DNA of 41,018 nucleotides. Origin: a virus. Positions 2,926 to 28,535 of this stretch are shown piece after piece. Under the pieces are notes generated by a model. The model worked only from the letters and a program-made list of their open reading frames with translations. It searched no databases and was not told where the DNA came from. Position numbers and translations under genes: made by a program. The stretch is taken from positions 1 to 41,018 of IMG/VR virus record IMGVR_UViG_3300011113_000247. One strand, 5' to 3'. Position 1 is the stretch's first letter; the number at the start of each line of letters is the position of its first letter.

Positions 2926-5278
2926 ACGCATAAACAGCGCCCCTCAAGGCGACATTGAAGTCGATGTGGAGATGGAAAATCTCCCAGAGATTGAGATTGA
3001 ATTTGATGAAGAGGGCGGCGTTACTGTTAGCCTTGACGAGAGCGAGGATGACGTAGCGTTCGACGCGAACCTTGCGGAAGTTGTTCCGGAAGACGTCCGC
3101 TCCAAGATTTCCGAAGACCTCATGATGTTGTTTGAGGCGGATGTCACGTCGCGCGATGATTGGGAAAAGCAATACGCACAGGGCTTAGAGTTGCTTGGCT
3201 TCTCAATGGAGGAGCGCACCAAGCCGTTTAAAGGTGCGTGTGGCGTGTACCACCCACTGCTGTCCGAGGCGATTGTGCAGTTCCAAGCACAGGCGTTGAA
3301 GGAGTTAATGCCGTCAGGTGGCCCTGTTAGAACACAGGTATTGGGCAAAGAGACGCGTGAGAAGTTGATGCAAGCCCAGCGTGTTCAAGAGTTTATGAAC
3401 TACCAGATCACCACGGTCATGCAGGAATATACCCCTGACTTTGATCAGTTGCTGTTCTATGTGGGCTATGGCGGTTCGGCGTTCAAGAAGGTGTACTACG
3501 ACTTTGACAAAGGTCGGATGGTAAGCAAGTTGATCCCTGCGGATAACTTATACATCCCGTACAACGGCTCGTCAGTGATGAGTGAGTGTGAGCGCATCAG
3601 CTACAAGTTTCCGATGTCGGTGAATGCGTATCGCAAGGCTGTTGCGCGTCGCCAGTATTTGGATATTGCAGAGGCCACAAGCATCCAAGAGCAGACACAG
3701 ATTGTTGAAGCGAAGGATAAGTTGGTAGGTCAAACACCTGCTGGTGATGAAGAAGAGATGATGTTCATTGAGTTTCAGGTGGACTACGATCTCCCCGGCT
3801 TTGAGGATAAGGATGAAGAGGGCGAGGCAACGGGCATCAAGCTCCCGTATGTCATCACCATTGATGAGACCTCAGGCAAGGTAGTTGGTATCCGTCGCAA
3901 CTGGATGGAAGGCGAGGAAGAGAAGAAGCGCAAGGAGTATTACGTTCATTACCTGTTGGTGCAGGGCCCCGGTGCCTATGGCTTGGGCTTTTTGCATTTG
4001 ATTGGTGGCTTGTCTAAGACAGCGTCGGCTGCGCTGCGTCAGTTGGTAGATGCCGGTACGTTGTCCAACCTGCCTGCTGGTTTTAAAGCGAAGGGCGCAC
4101 GGATTGAGAATGATGACGTGCCGATCTCTCCGGGCGAATGGCGTGACATTGATGCCGGTGGCATGGAGATATCGCAGTCGCTCTTGCCATTGCCGTACAA
4201 AGAGCCAAGCCAGACGTTGTTCGCGCTTCTAGGCTTCTGTGTGGATGCAGGCCGTCGGTTATCGTCGATTACGGATTTGCAGGTAGGGGATAGCAATCAG
4301 AATGCAGCGGTAGGTACGACGATTGCGTTGTTGGAGAAGGGTTCGTCGGTGATGTCGGCAATCCACAAGCGTCTGCACTATGCGCAGAAGCTTGAATTCC
4401 AGCTTTTGGCAGAGGGGTTTGCTGAGTACTTGCCGGATGAGTATCCGTATGATGTGCCGGGGGAGACTCGGAAGATTAAGCGAAAGGACTTTGATGATCG
4501 TATCGATGTTCTGCCAGTGTCTGACCCCAACATTTTCTCGATTGCCCAGCGCATCACTATGGCGCAAACGCAGTTACAGTTGGCTCAAAGCGCCCCGCAG
4601 ATGCATAACATGTACGAAGCCTATCGGCGCATGTACGAAGCCATCGGGGTGCGGGATGTAGATGCCATTTTAATAAGCCAGAATGTAGATAAGCCAAAAG
4701 ATCCGGCCAGTGAGAACTCACAGGCGTTGGATGGGGTGCAGTTGAAGGCGTTTGCCGGTCAACAGCATGATGCGCATATCATGAGCCACATCTTATTTGG
4801 TCTGTCCCCAATTGTTGGGGCGATGCCAAACGTCGGTATTACCATTCAAAAGCATATTTTTGACCACATCACCAAGAAAGCGGAAGAGTTTGTCGAGGCG
4901 GAGCTGTTTAAGCAGTACGGTACTGACCCAGACCAGCTAATTTCCCCGCTCCAGCGCGAGGCAATGGTGGCGTTGAAGGTGGCTGAGTTCTACCAGCAGG
5001 CAAAACAGTTGCAAGAACAGCTATCTGGGGCAAATCAACAGCAGCCAGACCCGTTGATTGAGTTGAAAAAGCAGGAGTTGGCGAATAACGCACAGCGTGA
5101 TCAGGCCAATGCTCAGATTGCCCAGCAAAAATTAATGCTGGATCAGCAAAAAGAGCAGAATGATATGGCGGTGGATCAGGCTAGATTGCAGCAAAATCAG
5201 CAACTAGCGGCAGAACGGAACGCTGTTGCATTGATGAAACAAGCCGGTGGCGCTCAAGGAGGGCAAAGACGTGAATAG
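2915..5278 (+). CDS. Portal (head-tail connector) protein
   Basis: This 787-residue protein sits between the terminase and the scaffold and capsid genes, where a portal is expected, and has the size of P22-like portals. After an acidic N-terminus it has a helical stretch (DDWEKQYAQGLELLG), then PFKGACGVYHPLLSEAIVQF and the core motif YVGYGGSAFKKVYYD with PADNLYIPYNG, which are typical of portals of marine and freshwater podovirus-like phages as I recall them. A middle segment, YGLGFLHLIGGLSKTASAALRQLVDAGTL in sense, fits the clip and stem helices. The last 130 residues are glutamine-rich coiled coil, comparable to a barrel extension. Twelve copies would form the ring through which DNA is packaged and ejected. 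The ATG lies inside the previous gene, suggesting translational coupling. Confidence 0.85.
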   Translation: MPVERINSAPQGDIEVDVEMENLPEIEIEFDEEGGVTVSLDESEDDVAFDANLAEVVPEDVRSKISEDLMMLFEADVTSRDDWEKQYAQGLELLGFSMEERTKPFKGACGVYHPLLSEAIVQFQAQALKELMPSGGPVRTQVLGKETREKLMQAQRVQEFMNYQITTVMQEYTPDFDQLLFYVGYGGSAFKKVYYDFDKGRMVSKLIPADNLYIPYNGSSVMSECERISYKFPMSVNAYRKAVARRQYLDIAEATSIQEQTQIVEAKDKLVGQTPAGDEEEMMFIEFQVDYDLPGFEDKDEEGEATGIKLPYVITIDETSGKVVGIRRNWMEGEEEKKRKEYYVHYLLVQGPGAYGLGFLHLIGGLSKTASAALRQLVDAGTLSNLPAGFKAKGARIENDDVPISPGEWRDIDAGGMEISQSLLPLPYKEPSQTLFALLGFCVDAGRRLSSITDLQVGDSNQNAAVGTTIALLEKGSSVMSAIHKRLHYAQKLEFQLLAEGFAEYLPDEYPYDVPGETRKIKRKDFDDRIDVLPVSDPNIFSIAQRITMAQTQLQLAQSAPQMHNMYEAYRRMYEAIGVRDVDAILISQNVDKPKDPASENSQALDGVQLKAFAGQQHDAHIMSHILFGLSPIVGAMPNVGITIQKHIFDHITKKAEEFVEAELFKQYGTDPDQLISPLQREAMVALKVAEFYQQAKQLQEQLSGANQQQPDPLIELKKQELANNAQRDQANAQIAQQKLMLDQQKEQNDMAVDQARLQQNQQLAAERNAVALMKQAGGAQGGQRRE

Positions 5279-20063: not shown

Positions 20064-20825
20064 ATGTTTGGCTATAGTGCGTTTGCCCAAGCTCCGTTTG
20101 CGACTATCCCGATGCTGGGTGCGCCAGCATCGGTTACGCTGACCGGGCAAGAGCTGTTCATTCACATAAACAGCGTAGCCACCACTGCTGACGCAAATGT
20201 AAATCTAGTTTCTCAGTTACCACTTGTCGCTTCTCAAGGGGTACTACAGTTTAATTCAGCTTATGCGCTGAATGGGCAACAGATAACGTCGTTTATAGAG
20301 AGTCTGGATGTTACGGCATTTGCCAACACGACACTTAACTCTCAACTGTTGCAAGCGTTCCAAGGCACCGTAACCGGTGCGCCGGGGTACGTAATAACCG
20401 GTATAGGCATGACTGCGGATCAAGGCAGTCTGACTACAACCGCAGCTGCAAATGTAGTTCTTAATGGTGGCGTTGTAACCGGTGTAACCGGGATTATTAG
20501 CGCTACAGGCACCGGCTCTACTACGTTGGTAGGGCAGCTTGCAAATATTTCGCAGGGGGTTGTCACCGCGTCAGGCGGGGCGGTAGCTACAATAACAGGC
20601 GTTACGGCACTTATTAATATTAATAACGTGCTTGTGTGGGGCATCATACCAACCCCTGATGACCCTGCATGGCAGACGATTAATACGCAGCAAGCGGAAG
20701 GTTGGGTTGTAATACCTACGGATCAGAACAGTATATGGGGCAATATACAGACGGCAAATACTACTTGGACTGATATTGACGATTCTCAGCCGGGTGACGG
20801 CAACTGGACAAACATACCAAACTAG
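20064..20825 (+). CDS. Beta-repeat structural/fibre protein
   Basis: This 253-residue protein has a start (MFGYSAFAQAPFATIP) common in phage structural proteins whose middles are built of short beta repeats. Here the repeats are units such as NVVLNGGVVTGVTGIISATGTG and TLVGQLANISQGVVTASGG, each a strand plus turn. The C-terminal 60 residues are rich in Trp and Asp, with W-x-x-I boxes (WQTINTQ, WGNIQTAN, WTDIDDS, WTNIPN). The Trp boxes repeat about every 13-18 residues and may bind a partner. It ends just before the lysis region. Confidence 0.65.
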   Translation: MFGYSAFAQAPFATIPMLGAPASVTLTGQELFIHINSVATTADANVNLVSQLPLVASQGVLQFNSAYALNGQQITSFIESLDVTAFANTTLNSQLLQAFQGTVTGAPGYVITGIGMTADQGSLTTTAAANVVLNGGVVTGVTGIISATGTGSTTLVGQLANISQGVVTASGGAVATITGVTALININNVLVWGIIPTPDDPAWQTINTQQAEGWVVIPTDQNSIWGNIQTANTTWTDIDDSQPGDGNWTNIPN

Positions 20826-20839
20826 TAGTGGAGGCATAA

Positions 20840-21526
20840 ATTGACCCGCTAACCCTGCTTGCCGCTGCCAACGCCGCTGTTGCGGCTGTAAAGAAAGGTT
20901 GTCAACTTTACAAGGAGATCAAGGGCGCAGCAGGGGATGTGTCAGACGTACTGAAGGACTTGAAGGAGCAGTACAACAAGATAGTAGACCCAACGCCTGT
21001 ACAAAAAGCACAGTACCACGCGGAAGTGCAGCGGGTGCAGGAGATAGCAAAGTCCGACCCCAACGATGTTTTCACCGACATTGGCAATCAGTTGGGTGCG
21101 TTGATGGACAGCTATGACGCGATCAGCAAGTTGTTCTTGAAGGAGCAATTGGAAGCCAAGCAGGTCTACAGAGGTGAAGAAAGTATCGGGCGACGGGCGC
21201 TAAAGCGCATATTGATAACGGCTAGACTAGACGCTATGCTGGTAGAGATTCGAGAGACGATGACGTATCGAGCGCCGCCAGAGTTAGGTGCCTTGTGGAG
21301 CAAGTTTGAAGATATGTGGCAGCGCATCGTTGCCGAGCAGGAGGAAGCCCACGCAGAGGAACTTAGACTGGCTCAGATAGCAAGATGGCGACGCAGAAAA
21401 AGAATAGCGGAAATCAAGTCAAAGGTGGCGTGGGTCTCGGCAGTGGTGTTCGTAGTTATATGGGCGGTGGGACTAATGTGGCTGACGACAAGAAGCACGA
21501 TACAGAGAATGTACCTTGGTCACTGA
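20840..21526 (+). CDS. Coiled-coil protein with C-terminal membrane segment, apparent ATT start
   Basis: The open frame has no ATG, GTG or TTG near its ribosome site, but ATT at 20840 lies 5 nt after a strong GTGGAGG and gives the start (M)DPLTLLAAANAAVAAVKKG. The next usable codon, GTG at 20939, would drop 33 residues with coherent coding character and has only an AGGGGA directly adjacent. From ATT the protein has 228 residues: an Ala-rich hydrophobic N-terminal helix, a long coiled coil, a basic stretch (WRRRKRIAEIKSK) and a C-terminal membrane segment at about 196-216. Function unknown. Its position before the holin suggests a lysis or membrane role. The last 142 nt overlap the next gene in another frame. 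Confidence 0.65.
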   Translation: MDPLTLLAAANAAVAAVKKGCQLYKEIKGAAGDVSDVLKDLKEQYNKIVDPTPVQKAQYHAEVQRVQEIAKSDPNDVFTDIGNQLGALMDSYDAISKLFLKEQLEAKQVYRGEESIGRRALKRILITARLDAMLVEIRETMTYRAPPELGALWSKFEDMWQRIVAEQEEAHAEELRLAQIARWRRRKRIAEIKSKVAWVSAVVFVVIWAVGLMWLTTRSTIQRMYLGH

Positions 21527-21690
21527 TCGTGGTGGTAATGACGGTGCTGTTGATGTTCTTCATCATAATGCCGGTGTTAGCATTTATGTACTACGACATG
21601 TATTACGCCACCCAAGCGGCAGTGCACGAGGTCAGGAAGATGCGGGAGTTACGTAAGGAAATACAAATTGAACGGATGTACGGTAAATAA
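21385..21690 (+). CDS. Small membrane protein overlapping the previous gene
   Basis: This frame encodes up to 101 residues with one strong membrane segment (about 46-70, WSLIVVVMTVLLMFFIIMPVLAFMYYD) and a charged C-terminal helix (EVRKMRELRKEIQIERMYG). The ATG at 21385 lies 142 nt inside the previous gene, with a weak ribosome site. The Gly-rich first 30 residues may be no more than shadow sequence; a GTG at 21478, after GGTGGG, would give about 70 residues starting VADDKKHD and is a good alternative. The membrane helix and tail are surely coding. It lies 9 nt before the holin start, so a lysis accessory role is likely. Confidence 0.65.
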   Translation: MATQKKNSGNQVKGGVGLGSGVRSYMGGGTNVADDKKHDTENVPWSLIVVVMTVLLMFFIIMPVLAFMYYDMYYATQAAVHEVRKMRELRKEIQIERMYGK

Positions 21691-21699
21691 GGAGCAATC

Positions 21700-22212
21700 A
21701 TGCTGACGCTTATCTCAACCATCGGTGGCTACATAGTCGCCCTCTTCCCAAGACTGTTTGATATGTTGCAGGATCGTGCGGACAAGAAGCACGAGCTAGA
21801 CATCCTACACATGCAGATGCGTCAGCAATTAGCGTTATCAGAGCGTGGCTACTCCCCGTCAGACAAGACCGAGGAAGTCCGCGAGAACGACGAGCAGGAT
21901 CACCAGCAATACATGGCGCAGATTGGCGCCATCTACAACAACCAAGAGAAGCTACTAGAGTCCTCTTCCCAGTGGGTTAAGGATATGACTGCGGCTACCC
22001 GCCCGTTCGTGACGTTCATCTTTGTCCTTGAGCTTGTGCTAATTAACTTGCTGACGATGCTGTGGATTTTCATACACGGTGACAAGGTGACATCAATCGG
22101 TGAGCTGATTCAGATCATGGAAATCGTGTTTGACGCAGACGAGATGGCGCTCTTGGGTACGATCATCGCTATGTGGTTTGGTTCCCGTGGTAACTCGAAG
22201 GCTGGCAAGTGA
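21700..22212 (+). CDS. Holin, three-TM (GTA-holin-like) family
   Basis: This 170-residue protein begins with a hydrophobic amphipathic segment (LTLISTIGGYIVALFPRLF), then a charged helical domain (about 25-90). The signature half follows: ATRPFVTFIFVLELVLINLLTMLWIFI in sense at 99-125, then EIVFDADEMALLGTIIAMWFGSRG near the end. The (V/A)(T/R)RP-x-x-T box before the main membrane segment and the FGSR end are what I recall from the family named holin of 3TMs, for gene-transfer release. A holin forms the inner-membrane lesion that lets the endolysin out. It has an AAGGAG site and lies in a lysis cassette. Confidence 0.8.
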   Translation: MLTLISTIGGYIVALFPRLFDMLQDRADKKHELDILHMQMRQQLALSERGYSPSDKTEEVRENDEQDHQQYMAQIGAIYNNQEKLLESSSQWVKDMTAATRPFVTFIFVLELVLINLLTMLWIFIHGDKVTSIGELIQIMEIVFDADEMALLGTIIAMWFGSRGNSKAGK

Positions 22213-22283
22213 TTTACCTTGTCTATGCGCGGGTAGCCGCAACGGTATTGCTATGTGCTTATTTGATAAGTAATTTGCCATGA
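22209..22283 (+). CDS. 24-residue membrane peptide between holin and endolysin
   Basis: A GTG at 22209 overlaps the holin stop (GTGA) and the frame ends in a TGA that overlaps the endolysin ATG (ATGA), so it exactly fills the gap with 4-nt overlaps at both sides. The peptide, about IYLVYARVAATVLLCAYLIS, is a single hydrophobic helix with one Arg. This arrangement is typical of coupled genes and unlikely for random spacer. It may act as a holin partner or antiholin, or serve to couple translation. The ribosome site is weak (AAGG), and 25 codons is too short to prove coding. Confidence 0.45.
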   Translation: MIYLVYARVAATVLLCAYLISNLP

Positions 22284-22765
22284 AACTACCACTTGCCACA
22301 ATTGCAATGATTAAGCATCACGAAGGGGTGCGGTACAAGCCTTATAAGTGTCCAGCAAAGTTGTGGACGATAGGTGTAGGGCACGTACTGTACCCCGAGC
22401 AGGGCAAGATGCCCGTCGATCAACGCGATAAGTTCGCACTCAAAATAGAGGACTTCCGTGTATTTAGCAAAGAAGAAGTTGATTCGATCCTTGAGAAAGA
22501 CTTACAGCGCTTTGTCGCTGGTGTTCTTCGTTACTGCCCTGACCATCTTAACGAAAATCGCTTGGGCGCGTTGGTCAGCTTTGCATTCAATGTTGGGCTA
22601 GGCACTCTCCAGAGATCAACCCTGCGACAGAAGCACAACCGTGGGGATTTTGAAGGGGTAAAGCAGGAGTTCCTGAAGTTCACGAAGGGCGGCGGCAAGG
22701 TCTTGCCGGGGCTGGTCAAGCGCCGGAATGATGAAATAGCCCTGTATTTTGCGGAACCAAAATGA
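22280..22765 (+). CDS. Endolysin, GH24 (T4-type lysozyme)
   Basis: This 161-residue GH24 lysozyme has the catalytic triad of the Glu-8x-Asp/Cys-5x-Thr type: E15 in IKHHEGVRYKPY, C24 in KCP, and T30 in LWTIGVGH. The GH24 C-terminal features follow: RLGALVSFAFNVGLGTLQRSTL, then GGGKVLPGLVKRRNDEI. The Cys in place of Asp is known in P21-like endolysins. There is no signal peptide or anchor, so it needs the holin to reach the wall. It cuts the glycan backbone between MurNAc and GlcNAc. The stop overlaps the i-spanin start by 4 nt. Confidence 0.9.
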   Translation: MKLPLATIAMIKHHEGVRYKPYKCPAKLWTIGVGHVLYPEQGKMPVDQRDKFALKIEDFRVFSKEEVDSILEKDLQRFVAGVLRYCPDHLNENRLGALVSFAFNVGLGTLQRSTLRQKHNRGDFEGVKQEFLKFTKGGGKVLPGLVKRRNDEIALYFAEPK

Positions 22766-23229
22766 ACCCCTACCTGATCCTCGGCGGCGTTCTAGCCATT
22801 GGCTTGGCGGCTGGGGGCGGGTATTATAAAGGCAATTCTGCGGGTAAATCTGAAGTCCAACAAGCTTGGGATAGGGAAAAAACCGAGCAGTACGCTGTAC
22901 ATGCCAAAGCGTTGGAAGAAGCTGTAGAGAAACAGCAGCAGCTTCAGATGGAGGCAGATAAGTTAAGACAGGAGAAGGATAGTGAAATTCGCAATATCAA
23001 TGCTCGTGCTACCGCTCTTGTTAACAGCTTGCGCGACCGGCAAAGTCGCTCCGCCCCCACTACAAGTACCGTGCCCAGTGCCGCCAGCGTTGGACCCAGC
23101 GCCTGTACCGGAAAAGAGCTTTACAGAGAGGATGGCGAATTTCTTGTCAGGATCGCTAGAGAAGCCGACGAACTTAAAGCAGCCCTCGACCAATGCTACA
23201 AGCAATACAACGCCGCAAGGCAAAAGTAA
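22762..23229 (+). CDS. Rz-like i-spanin (inner-membrane spanin)
   Basis: This 155-residue protein has an N-terminal membrane anchor (about 4-24, YLILGGVLAIGLAAGGGYY), then a periplasmic coiled coil (EQYAVHAKALEEAVEKQQQ and onward), a Ser/Pro/Thr-rich hinge and a C-terminal helix with LVRIAREADELKAALDQCY. This is the usual layout of Rz. The gene for the outer-membrane partner is embedded in it in the +1 frame from 22982. Spanins fuse inner and outer membranes in the last step of lysis, and their presence means a Gram-negative host. Confidence 0.85.
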   Translation: MNPYLILGGVLAIGLAAGGGYYKGNSAGKSEVQQAWDREKTEQYAVHAKALEEAVEKQQQLQMEADKLRQEKDSEIRNINARATALVNSLRDRQSRSAPTTSTVPSAASVGPSACTGKELYREDGEFLVRIAREADELKAALDQCYKQYNAARQK

Positions 23230-23236
23230 GGAGTAA
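22982..23236 (+). CDS. Rz1-like o-spanin lipoprotein, nested in the i-spanin gene
   Basis: This 84-residue frame lies inside the Rz-like gene in another frame and ends 7 nt past its stop. It starts with a lipoprotein signal (MKFAISMLVLPLLLTAC); the lipobox LTAC puts the lipidated Cys at residue 17. A proline-rich stretch follows (VAPPPLQVPCPVPPALDPAPVP), the hallmark of Rz1. The mature lipoprotein sits in the outer membrane and binds the i-spanin across the periplasm. A nested Rz/Rz1 layout is well known in lambda-type cassettes. A GGAGAAGGA site precedes the ATG. Confidence 0.88.
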   Translation: MKFAISMLVLPLLLTACATGKVAPPPLQVPCPVPPALDPAPVPEKSFTERMANFLSGSLEKPTNLKQPSTNATSNTTPQGKSKE

Positions 23237-24936: not shown

Positions 24937-27147
24937 ATGCCACTACAGAAACTACAGTTTCGCCCCGGTGTAAACCGAGAAGGTACAACGCTCTCTAACG
25001 AAGGCGGTTGGTACGACTGCGATAAGGTGCGATTCCGTTCTGGCTACCCTGAAAAAATAGGTGGTTGGGCGGCAAATGGATATAACACTTTTCTGGGTGT
25101 GTGCCGTTCGCTATGGAATTGGATAACACTTAAGCAATACAACCTTCTTGGGCTTGGCACTAATTTAAAATTTTATGTTGAAGACGGGCAGATATATTAC
25201 GACATTACCCCTCTACGGGAAACGAACGGTAATTTAGCGGGGCAGATAACACTTGCTGTTACGAACAATTCTAACGTACTGACTATTACAGACGCTGGCG
25301 CTGACGGGCTACAAGTTGGGGATTTTGTTACGTTAGCTGGGGCTGTAACTTTAGGCGGAAACGTGACAGCTGGTGTACTAAATCAAGAATATCAAATTAG
25401 TTCTGTACTTTCAGGAACGCAATATACCGTTACCTTACGTCAGGCAAGTACATCAATTAATGGGGTCAAGTTTATTACAGACCCTTTGACTTCCGTTTTT
25501 ACTTTACCTCCAGATGTAACTACAGTAATTGCAAATGGCGATGCTGTTGTTCTTTTACCTACTATAGCACTACCTTCTGGTTTGTCAGCAGGTACTACGT
25601 ACTATCTAGTTAACGTCCCTTTACCGCCCCTCGCTGCAAATACATTTCAGCTTTCTCTTACGCCCGGTGGCCCTCCAGTAACTGTTACGACTCCGGGTTT
25701 AGGGCAGCAAGCGTTTTATTTTACGTTAGTCGCCAATACTAATGCGTCAAGTTCAGCTATGACTGCGCTAACAATTGCATATCAAATAAATACTGGTTTT
25801 CCTATATACACCGTAGGAACTGGTTGGGGCGCAGGGTCTTGGTCTCGTGGGGCGTGGAATTCTGGATTTACAACAGGGTTTGGTATACAGCTACGTTTGT
25901 GGAGCCAAATGAATTTTGGCGAGTACCTTATATTTAACCCGCGAGGGGGAGCGCTATATATTTGGCAACCCGGAAGTGGTGCTACGCCCGGATACAGTGT
26001 CCGAGGGGTAGTTTTGTCTCCTTCTTCTGTCACTCCCGCTGGTTGGACATCTACTGTTACGGATTCTTCTTGTCCTACAATTTGCAATCAAATCATGGTG
26101 TCGGATTCAACCCGAATTGTGATTGCATTTGGGTGTAACGATTATGGTAGTTCTGTACTAGACCCGTTACTGATTCGCTGGTCTGCACAAGAAAGTTTTT
26201 CTGAATGGGCGGTTAGCGCCACAAACCAAGCGGGTAGCTATCGTCTGTCGCACGGTTCCGAAATAGTAAGTGCGATACAAACTCGCCAAGAAATCATTGT
26301 ACTTACCGACGCGGCGATTTATTCGATGCAGTATCTTGGGCCACCATTTGTCTGGGGCTTTACACTACTTGCCGATAATATTTCTATTATGTCTCCCAAC
26401 GCTGTGGCGACTGCTACGGGTGTTGTGTTCTGGATGGGCACTGATAAGTTCTATGTGTACTCAGGCCGTGTCGAAACATTACCTTGCGCGGTACGCCAAT
26501 ATGTTTTTAACGATATTAACCGTACGCAAGAAGCTCAATTTCTTTCTGGCACAAATGAAGGTTACAGTGAAGTTTGGTGGTTTTACTGCTCTTCTGATTC
26601 TGATGTAATAGATCGTTACGTTATTTTTAACTACCTAGACCGCGTGTGGTACTACGGCACGATGGATAGAACTGCTTGGTTAGACTCCGCTTTGCGCCAA
26701 TTTCCACAAGCCGCAACGGGGAATAATATTGTTGTGTTCCATGAAGCGGCTGTAGATGATGGCTCTACTAATCCGCCCAGCGCGATTGACTCGTACGTAC
26801 AATCTTCTGATTTTGACATTGGTGACGGGCACAATTACGGTTTTGTAAATCATATGATTCCAGACATCACGTTCGATGGTTCGGATGTTAATGCCCCCCA
26901 AGTAATATTTACTGTTCGCCCTCGACAAAACCCCGGCGCAAACTATAGCCTTGCTGCATCACCTCCTGTTGTCTCCGCAAATAACTATGTCGGACAACAG
27001 TCATACAACGTTCAACAATTTACGCAAATTGTATATACCCGCTTACGCGGGCGGCAAATGGCTTTTAAAGTCGAATCGAATTCAATAGGTACTCAGTGGC
27101 AGCTAGGCGTGCCAAGAATGGATGTGCGACCGGACGGACGTAAATGA
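24937..27147 (+). CDS. Tail nozzle / gp10-like stabilisation protein
   Basis: This 736-residue protein has the start common to P22 gp10-like nozzle proteins of environmental phages: LQKLQFRPGVNREGTTLSNE, then WYDCDKVRFRSGYPEKIGGW. Residues from about 340 carry propeller-type strands (SEIVSAIQTRQEIIVLTDAA, VFWMGTDKFYVYSGR, VWWFYCSSDSDVIDRYVIFNY). The end (MAFKVESNSIGTQWQLG) closes the fold. Between about 90 and 280 lies a region of Gly/Thr/Asn-rich beta repeats (LTITDAGADGLQVGDFVTL) that looks like an inserted domain. The nozzle closes the tail under the adaptor and binds fibres. It overlaps the next gene by 4 nt (ATGA). Confidence 0.7.
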   Translation: MPLQKLQFRPGVNREGTTLSNEGGWYDCDKVRFRSGYPEKIGGWAANGYNTFLGVCRSLWNWITLKQYNLLGLGTNLKFYVEDGQIYYDITPLRETNGNLAGQITLAVTNNSNVLTITDAGADGLQVGDFVTLAGAVTLGGNVTAGVLNQEYQISSVLSGTQYTVTLRQASTSINGVKFITDPLTSVFTLPPDVTTVIANGDAVVLLPTIALPSGLSAGTTYYLVNVPLPPLAANTFQLSLTPGGPPVTVTTPGLGQQAFYFTLVANTNASSSAMTALTIAYQINTGFPIYTVGTGWGAGSWSRGAWNSGFTTGFGIQLRLWSQMNFGEYLIFNPRGGALYIWQPGSGATPGYSVRGVVLSPSSVTPAGWTSTVTDSSCPTICNQIMVSDSTRIVIAFGCNDYGSSVLDPLLIRWSAQESFSEWAVSATNQAGSYRLSHGSEIVSAIQTRQEIIVLTDAAIYSMQYLGPPFVWGFTLLADNISIMSPNAVATATGVVFWMGTDKFYVYSGRVETLPCAVRQYVFNDINRTQEAQFLSGTNEGYSEVWWFYCSSDSDVIDRYVIFNYLDRVWYYGTMDRTAWLDSALRQFPQAATGNNIVVFHEAAVDDGSTNPPSAIDSYVQSSDFDIGDGHNYGFVNHMIPDITFDGSDVNAPQVIFTVRPRQNPGANYSLAASPPVVSANNYVGQQSYNVQQFTQIVYTRLRGRQMAFKVESNSIGTQWQLGVPRMDVRPDGRK

Positions 27148-28535
27148 CATCTCAAATTATTACAACTGAATCAACGCAGTTAACCCCAACCAAAGCACCC
27201 GCGTTGCCGTTTGCGCCTGTGCAATATGATAGGCAATACCAAGACACATTTAACAATATTTTACGGCAGTATTTTAATACTCTTGATGGCTTTATAGGGC
27301 AGCTTATGGCTTCAACTGGAACTACATTTGGGGTTTATGGCGCGGGTACAGGCGCAGACGCTTTTGGACGACTTCGTGTGTCTAACCCCTATACGCTATT
27401 TGACAGCCAAAATCGTTATACCAAAGACAATCAGTTTAGCGAGACTACTGCTACAGGCGGAACAGCTACGTATAACAGTAACACCTCTTCTGTAGACATG
27501 GCTGTGACAACCGCATCTGGTTCTAGCGTTGTTAGGCAGTCTCTTCGCTGTATGCCCTACCAACCCGGTAAAGGACTTTTAGTCATGTGTACTTTTGTCA
27601 TGGCTATAACTAAAACAGGGTTACGTCAACGTGCGGGGTACTTTAATACTGATAACGGAGTGTTTTTAGAGTTAGCCGGTGCTCTAGAACCGAAGTTTGT
27701 ATTGCGCACCGCTACAAGCGGAAGTCCTAGTGATGCAAGGTCGATACCACAATCGAGTTGGAACGGTGACAAATTAGACGGTACTGGGGCATCAGGCTTT
27801 ACTTTGAATCTAACCAAAGCGCAGATTCTTTGGATGGATTTTGAGTGGTTGGGTGTTGGATCAGTGCGTTGTGGTTTTATTATTAACGGGCAGTATATTG
27901 TGTGCCACACGTTTAATAACGCCAATGATATAGATAGAGTCTATATGACTACGGCAATTTTACCGGTACGCTATGAAATAGAAAATACAACTACTACCGC
28001 GTCTACTTCTACACTAACCCAGATATGTTCTACGGTTATATCAGAGGGGGGCTACGGACAAGTTTCTGCGCCAAACACAGCAAGGCGCACCGCTATAAGA
28101 GCGGCTATCGCTACTACTTTTGTTCCTTTAGTTGCTATTAGACTAAAAACAGGGCGTACCGGGGCGGTTGTTCTGCCGCAAACAGTTAATGTGATGCCTA
28201 CTAGTGCGGGTAACTATGAAGTTGTATTAGCTAGATTAAATGATGCTACTTCGTTAACAAGCGCTAGTTGGGTAACAGCAGACTTTGAAAACGTAGAGTA
28301 CGACGTATCGGCTACCGCCGTAACTATTGCTGCTAGTCAGATCGTCGATCAGTTTTTTATAACTGCGACTAACCAAAGCGCTGGCGCAAGTGCCGAGCCT
28401 GTGGGGTACAACTTTGACACTCAGATTGGCGCTTCGCTTGCCGGGGTTAGCCAAGTTTATGTCGTGGCAGTGCGCGTTTTGTCCGGTACTGGCGACGCCA
28501 TAGGGTCTTTGACTTTTTATGATTTAACGCAGTAA
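27144..28535 (+). CDS. Virion structural protein with DAFGRLRVSNP box
   Basis: This 463-residue protein has a short N-terminal peptide with helical character (RQYQDTFNNILRQYFNTLDGF), then the box DAFGRLRVSNPYTLFDSQNRY near residue 72. I recall that box at the start of a family of phage structural proteins. A large beta domain follows (VRQSLRCMPYQPGKGLLVMC, ILWMDFEWLGVGSVRCGF) and another strand-rich domain ends it. The N-terminal helix with Y-x-x-x-FNNILR is often found in proteins that sit on the nozzle. It is likely an appendage or tail-tip protein. The exact role is unknown. Confidence 0.65.
   Translation: MTSQIITTESTQLTPTKAPALPFAPVQYDRQYQDTFNNILRQYFNTLDGFIGQLMASTGTTFGVYGAGTGADAFGRLRVSNPYTLFDSQNRYTKDNQFSETTATGGTATYNSNTSSVDMAVTTASGSSVVRQSLRCMPYQPGKGLLVMCTFVMAITKTGLRQRAGYFNTDNGVFLELAGALEPKFVLRTATSGSPSDARSIPQSSWNGDKLDGTGASGFTLNLTKAQILWMDFEWLGVGSVRCGFIINGQYIVCHTFNNANDIDRVYMTTAILPVRYEIENTTTTASTSTLTQICSTVISEGGYGQVSAPNTARRTAIRAAIATTFVPLVAIRLKTGRTGAVVLPQTVNVMPTSAGNYEVVLARLNDATSLTSASWVTADFENVEYDVSATAVTIAASQIVDQFFITATNQSAGASAEPVGYNFDTQIGASLAGVSQVYVVAVRVLSGTGDAIGSLTFYDLTQ

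Follow-up and report, generated by a model that had tools for sequence, protein, structure and literature searches.

The window, by which we mean the whole 41,018-nucleotide stretch analysed here (positions 1 to 41,018 of the IMG/VR virus record IMGVR_UViG_3300011113_000247), contains a gene whose apparent initiation codon is AUU. That gene and its surroundings comprise the following features.

20064..20825, plus strand: upstream gene, 253 aa, ending 14 nt before the ATT in another frame; many unrelated genes occupy this position in relatives.
20830..20834, plus strand: Shine-Dalgarno core GGAGG, read from the sequence, 5 nt 5' of the start codon.
20837..20839, plus strand: in-frame TAA immediately 5' of the ATT codon.
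20840..20842, plus strand: ATT (AUU) initiation codon, assigned from homologues whose corresponding codon is ATG, GTG, TTG, ATT, ATC or ATA family-wide, or which have such a start one codon earlier.
20840..21526, plus strand: the AUU gene; its 228-aa product is predicted to be all-helical and to span the membrane near its C-terminus (residues about 196-214).
21385..21690, plus strand: overlapping downstream gene, 101 aa, one predicted transmembrane segment, with an ATG start within the 3' end of the AUU gene.
21700..22212, plus strand: 170-aa membrane protein (phrog_6637), putatively holin-like by hydropathy and place.
22280..22765, plus strand: endolysin (Phage_lysozyme, PF00959), by Pfam and PHROG.
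22762..23229, plus strand: Rz-like spanin, by PHROG.

The AlphaFold2 model of the 228-aa protein has six helices (pLDDT 84.6), the hydropathy of the putative transmembrane segment peaks at 2.3, and a segment of this kind is predicted in the C-terminal part of all complete family members (194/194). Pfam and PHROG returned no family for the protein, so that no match to a holin or antiholin family was obtained; other hits were scattered and weak. A PDB structure search with the model gave nothing with E below 0.001, and the matches in BFVD were uncharacterised phage proteins only. For a presumed resemblance of the N-terminus (MDPLT...VKxGxxLYK) to HeLo-like/SesA domains, searches by Pfam, PDB sequence and PDB fold provided no support. 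Elsewhere in the window, another frame inside the Rz-like gene (22982-23236) has a lipoprotein-like N-terminus (LPLLLTACATG) and is likely Rz1, and 27144-28532 encodes a structural protein related to proteins of cyanophages, of HMO-2011 and of phage DSL-LC04 (54% identity). Megablast of window positions 16100-41000 against GenBank phages gave no match.

The original prediction placed GTGGAGG 5 nt before an ATT at 20840, and the sequence bears this out: from 20828 it reads GTGGAGG CATAA ATT GAC CCG CTA ACC, with the 5-nt spacer CATAA between GGAGG and ATT. The duplex energy of this Shine-Dalgarno sequence with the anti-Shine-Dalgarno is -9.3 kcal/mol. The prediction was also right that no standard start precedes the GTG at 20939; that GTG, codon 34, is the first in-frame ATG, GTG or TTG after the ATT, and the 228-aa ORF opens exactly at the ATT. 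The TAA directly before the ATT means that no earlier start is possible in that frame. The motif GGAGGN5ATT is expected 0.88 times for the base make-up of the window and was observed once, so the motif alone is no proof of a start; we rejected it as sole evidence, and the case for the ATT start is comparative. RNA structure around the start was the same as in shuffled sequence, and an Rfam search of the start region gave zero matches.

Close relatives were found in IMG/VR by protein and distant ones via a relative in a GenBank phage; a search for relatives in bacterial genomes found none. Our start-blind scan searched with a pattern whose first element is the Asp-Pro that follows the start codon, so that the start codon itself played no part in it. 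All scan counts are among the matches listed, and the loci are environmental contigs, not independent samples. In the start-blind sample (n=120, among the matches listed), the codon before Asp-Pro was ATG in 66, ATT in 26, GTG in 24, TTG in 3 and GTT in 1, the single GTT being preceded by an in-frame ATT. Hence 119/120 matches carry ATG, GTG, TTG or ATT at the homologous codon, and the general absence of other Val, Leu and Ile codons there argues for a start codon rather than an internal residue. The pooled scans yielded at least 275 unique genes, all with ATG, GTG, TTG, ATT, ATC or ATA at this place or one codon earlier. At least 119 unique relatives have AUH (or ATT-GTT) and lack any canonical start in the stretch that separates this codon from the in-frame stop, and that stop lies 0 or 1 codon upstream in 106/119 of the unique AUH relatives among the matches listed. 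In a control set of ORFs of at least 130 aa from all fetched loci (not de-duplicated), AUH with a Shine-Dalgarno core stood at the mouth of the extended frame in 120/2924, and every one of these was the gene described here (120/120). On this comparative evidence, AUU at 20840 is the start codon of the gene at 20840-21526. The alignment with homologues that the original prediction had proposed as a check came out in its favour, in that relatives keep the first 33 residues and many begin with ATG there. The ATT start is thus strongly supported; the placement in a lysis region that accompanied it holds only in part.

Several loci required individual reading. L295, L300, L333 and L364, labelled AUH, in fact read ATG ATT GAC, so that ATT encodes residue 2 (through an inserted start codon or as a variant of the junction), and were reclassed as ATG. 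L005, L006, L023 and L032 read TAA ATT GTG GAC, where ATT or GTG could each be the start. L177, L309, L105 and L367, whose frames stay open over a long lead that showed no canonical start as far as it was examined, were excluded from the strict set, and starts first read as CTA, CTT or TTA were resolved as GTG-Leu.

AUH starts are strongly clustered on a tree of 203 non-redundant proteins (FastTree, 245 columns). The window's clade, delimited by an AAA/ATA N-terminal motif, comprises 87 non-redundant genes, and among the matches listed 70 of these start with AUU or AUC, 15 with GUG, one with UUG and one with AUG. In 17% of pairs the start codon differs at its third base, versus 59% at third positions within codons 2-33. 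Starts in the strict set of 78 genes show an ATT to ATC ratio of 70:7, whereas internal Ile codons are 31% ATT, 34% ATC and 35% ATA (p 5e-28, on the assumption that genes are independent). The neighbouring genes have an ATG start in 37/37, 31/31 and 76/77 relatives. AUU is also found outside the clade (L086, L102, L105, L177, L286 and the L313 group), some of these cases being singletons on long or weakly placed branches. These comparisons indicate that the AUU start is evolutionarily kept and is not a one-off. The gene border itself, at 20825-20840 in the window and in relatives, is a mosaic junction at which at least 46 distinct upstream sequences join one gene at the Shine-Dalgarno sequence and AUH start; the last codons of many upstream genes contain the Shine-Dalgarno sequence, which gives their proteins a PE, EE or EA ending.

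The consensus around the 78 non-redundant AUH starts is GGAGGAATAA followed directly by ATT, with GGAGG at -10 to -6. Mean anti-Shine-Dalgarno pairing is -7.2 kcal/mol for AUH starts, versus -3.6 for AUG (p 4e-13) and -3.8 for GUG (p 1e-9). Within the clade, the means are -7.6 kcal/mol for AUU/AUC and -3.0 for canonical starts, and a well-placed Shine-Dalgarno core occurs in 59/70 of the former versus 0/17 of the latter. Phylogenetically independent pairs favour the association of AUU with a strong Shine-Dalgarno sequence by about 7:0 (median p 0.016), which may partly reflect shared descent and recombination, since the two travel as one junction. Judging from these energies, the canonical-start relatives with weak Shine-Dalgarno sequences look as if low output had been reached in different ways, and host differences may contribute to the values of the ATG clade. 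Of 70 loci, 25 have an upstream ORF that stops 0 nt before the AUH codon and 19 have one that stops 3 nt before it (44/70), an arrangement that suggests termination-reinitiation. The window is unlike those 44, its upstream gene ending 14 nt from the ATT in another frame. The idea that close coupling to the upstream stop gave rise to the AUU was unsupported after phylogenetic correction (3.3:3.5 pairs).

The assignment of the gene to a lysis region, also part of the original prediction, is correct for the window, with lysozyme and an Rz-like spanin downstream, and in many close relatives; most ATG-starting relatives do not share it. Relatives of the overlapping gene, which themselves start with ATG in 76/77 cases, stand behind 41/49 strict AUH genes with enough downstream sequence versus 1/52 ATG genes, and Rz relatives stand behind 36/49 AUH genes versus 0/52 ATG genes. 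A link to lysis is thus well supported in the AUU clade and poorly supported in the ATG clade. From this gene order we infer a lysis-related role for the AUU gene; as a counterpoint, its ATG-starting relatives lie mostly away from lysis genes.

Taken jointly, these data lead us to a reading to which we give a probability of roughly 80%: translation of 20840-21526 would begin at the AUU with fMet, giving the N-terminus (f)Met-DPLTLLAAANAAVAAVK, and a kept weak start combined with a strong Shine-Dalgarno sequence would hold a membrane-anchored protein at a low, set output at the entry to the lysis cassette. The AUU would cap output, and the strong, correctly spaced Shine-Dalgarno sequence would supply sufficient initiation, aided in many relatives by the upstream stop that abuts the start. 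The outcome would be a low, fixed amount of the helical protein where the lysis cassette begins, probably set in ratio to the product of the overlapping AUG-started membrane gene downstream. Sequence comparison establishes the position of the start, its conservation as AUU and its association with a strong Shine-Dalgarno sequence. That the gene is kept low, as had been proposed, fits this pairing and would follow by analogy with reporters of other AUU/AUA genes; in S. aureus, such starts with a strong Shine-Dalgarno sequence yield about 10% of AUG output (PMC13009471). The proposed ratio to the next gene's product likewise draws on analogy, with Streptomyces, where the IF3-repressed non-canonical start of sigR sets its ratio to the coupled rsrA (PMC5472188). 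A need for low amounts is presumed, since the family and structure searches gave the protein neither a family nor a function.

It is possible, if on balance unlikely, that the AUU is kept so that translation tracks the free IF3 of the infected cell, timing the gene to late infection. AUU, AUC and AUA are the starts that IF3 classically discriminates against; the factor represses initiation at non-canonical codons as well as re-initiation, and in excess it blocks the growth of M13 (PMC2268962); sigR is a demonstrated case other than infC (PMC5472188). Sensitivity to IF3, which the original prediction had raised, would follow reasonably from an AUU start, and IF3 control of the gene is plausible. 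However, the GUG found in 15/87 clade members would abolish most of the IF3 response while retaining weaker-than-AUG initiation, and this exchangeability suggests that what counts is weak initiation more than discrimination by IF3 in itself. A broader proposal, which we consider rather improbable, is that the AUU and strong Shine-Dalgarno sequence act, across a widespread phage protein family, as a kept governor at the border between late structural and lysis genes, with an output that tracks IF3 or the ribosome state and helps to time lysis.

All canonical-start members of the clade (17/17) have an upstream 45 nt that is unrelated (16-40% identity) to that of the nearest AUU relative, and the genes themselves are 78-92% identical to that relative; start codon and upstream sequence have therefore been exchanged as a unit, by recombination at a junction on the gene border. 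This pattern would also be expected if the AUU arose once with a strong Shine-Dalgarno sequence, was tolerated, and has since spread by junction recombination with no regulatory role, an explanation we regard as doubtful. A single mutation from ATT to ATG would raise output, yet ATG occurs in only 1/87 members, in a new context, and no such point change was seen in an otherwise unchanged junction among the matches listed. The low divergence of the third position at the start codon relative to the rest of the N-terminus, the preference for ATT over ATC and ATA, and the presence of AUU outside the clade also speak against a neutral origin and favour a kept weak start.

Two further explanations would deny the AUU its role altogether. 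That the true start is the GTG at 20939, with the first 33 codons untranslated, is the call expected from usual gene finders, and in GenBank the relative MW202462 has its annotated start at a downstream ATG. In that locus (L082, MW202462.1) the GenBank start is at locus position 3025 and the family alignment puts the start at GTG 2998 (GTG CTA GAC CCC), so the annotated protein is without the conserved N-terminus. The downstream GTG is nevertheless highly improbable as the start. The original prediction had seen coding character in the 33 residues, and codons 2-33 do evolve as protein-coding sequence, with pairwise differences per site of 0.13, 0.08 and 0.59 at codon positions 1, 2 and 3; of the 17 columns that are invariant across 76 aligned members, 7 fall in this segment (D2, P3, A10, A13, V14, L23 and Y24). 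Codon 34 is poorly kept: only 16/78 AUH genes have GTG there, and across those 78 the nearest canonical codon downstream of the start lies anywhere from codon 4 to codon 90. Relatives begin with ATG, GTG or TTG at the position of the ATT, and we rejected the downstream start on the conservation of codons 2-33 and the variability of codon 34. Readthrough of the upstream stop, or frameshifting from the upstream gene, giving a fusion in which the ATT is an internal codon, could draw on the in-frame stops 0 or 3 nt before the AUH but is exceedingly improbable and was rejected, because the upstream gene, in the window as in roughly a third of loci, occupies a different frame or stops at a greater distance, and upstream sequences fall into 46 clusters; ATG, GTG or TTG at the homologous codon in relatives also stands against it.

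In infC (IF3) and pcnB of E. coli, as proposed here, an AUU start limits translation, and IF3 discriminates against AUU (PMC9410913); the phage gene differs in lying outside translation and RNA metabolism and in that GUG can replace its AUU, and no autoregulatory tie to IF3, as in infC, is known for it. A conserved non-canonical start with a very strong Shine-Dalgarno sequence is shared with cvfC1 (AUU) and ccpN (AUA) of Staphylococcus and Bacillus (PMC13009471), which in contrast are cellular genes whose output has been measured; cvfC1 stands first in its operon, whereas the phage gene closely follows varied upstream genes. As in sigR-rsrA of Streptomyces, the non-canonical start is on the first gene of a pair, there translationally coupled (PMC5472188), and ratio-setting is proposed here; sigR differs in its GTC start and demonstrated IF3 dependence. 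Prokaryotic start codons also show compensation of weaker starts by stronger Shine-Dalgarno sequences (PMC5622118), but that survey concerns AUG, GUG and UUG and selection for more output, and AUU falls outside its set.

Non-canonical starts of this kind are already known from infC, pcnB, sigR, cvfC1 and ccpN, and the phage family adds to them. We found no paper in the open PMC literature on a conserved phage AUU start. To our knowledge, very few genes with natural AUU starts are known, nearly all of them cellular. Gene finders limited to ATG, GTG and TTG clip a highly conserved part of the 228-aa protein. Moreover, dozens of natural AUU, AUC, GUG, UUG and AUG versions at one homologous codon provide a ready test bed for asking why a weak start is kept, how Shine-Dalgarno strength offsets it, and whether phages exploit IF3 discrimination.
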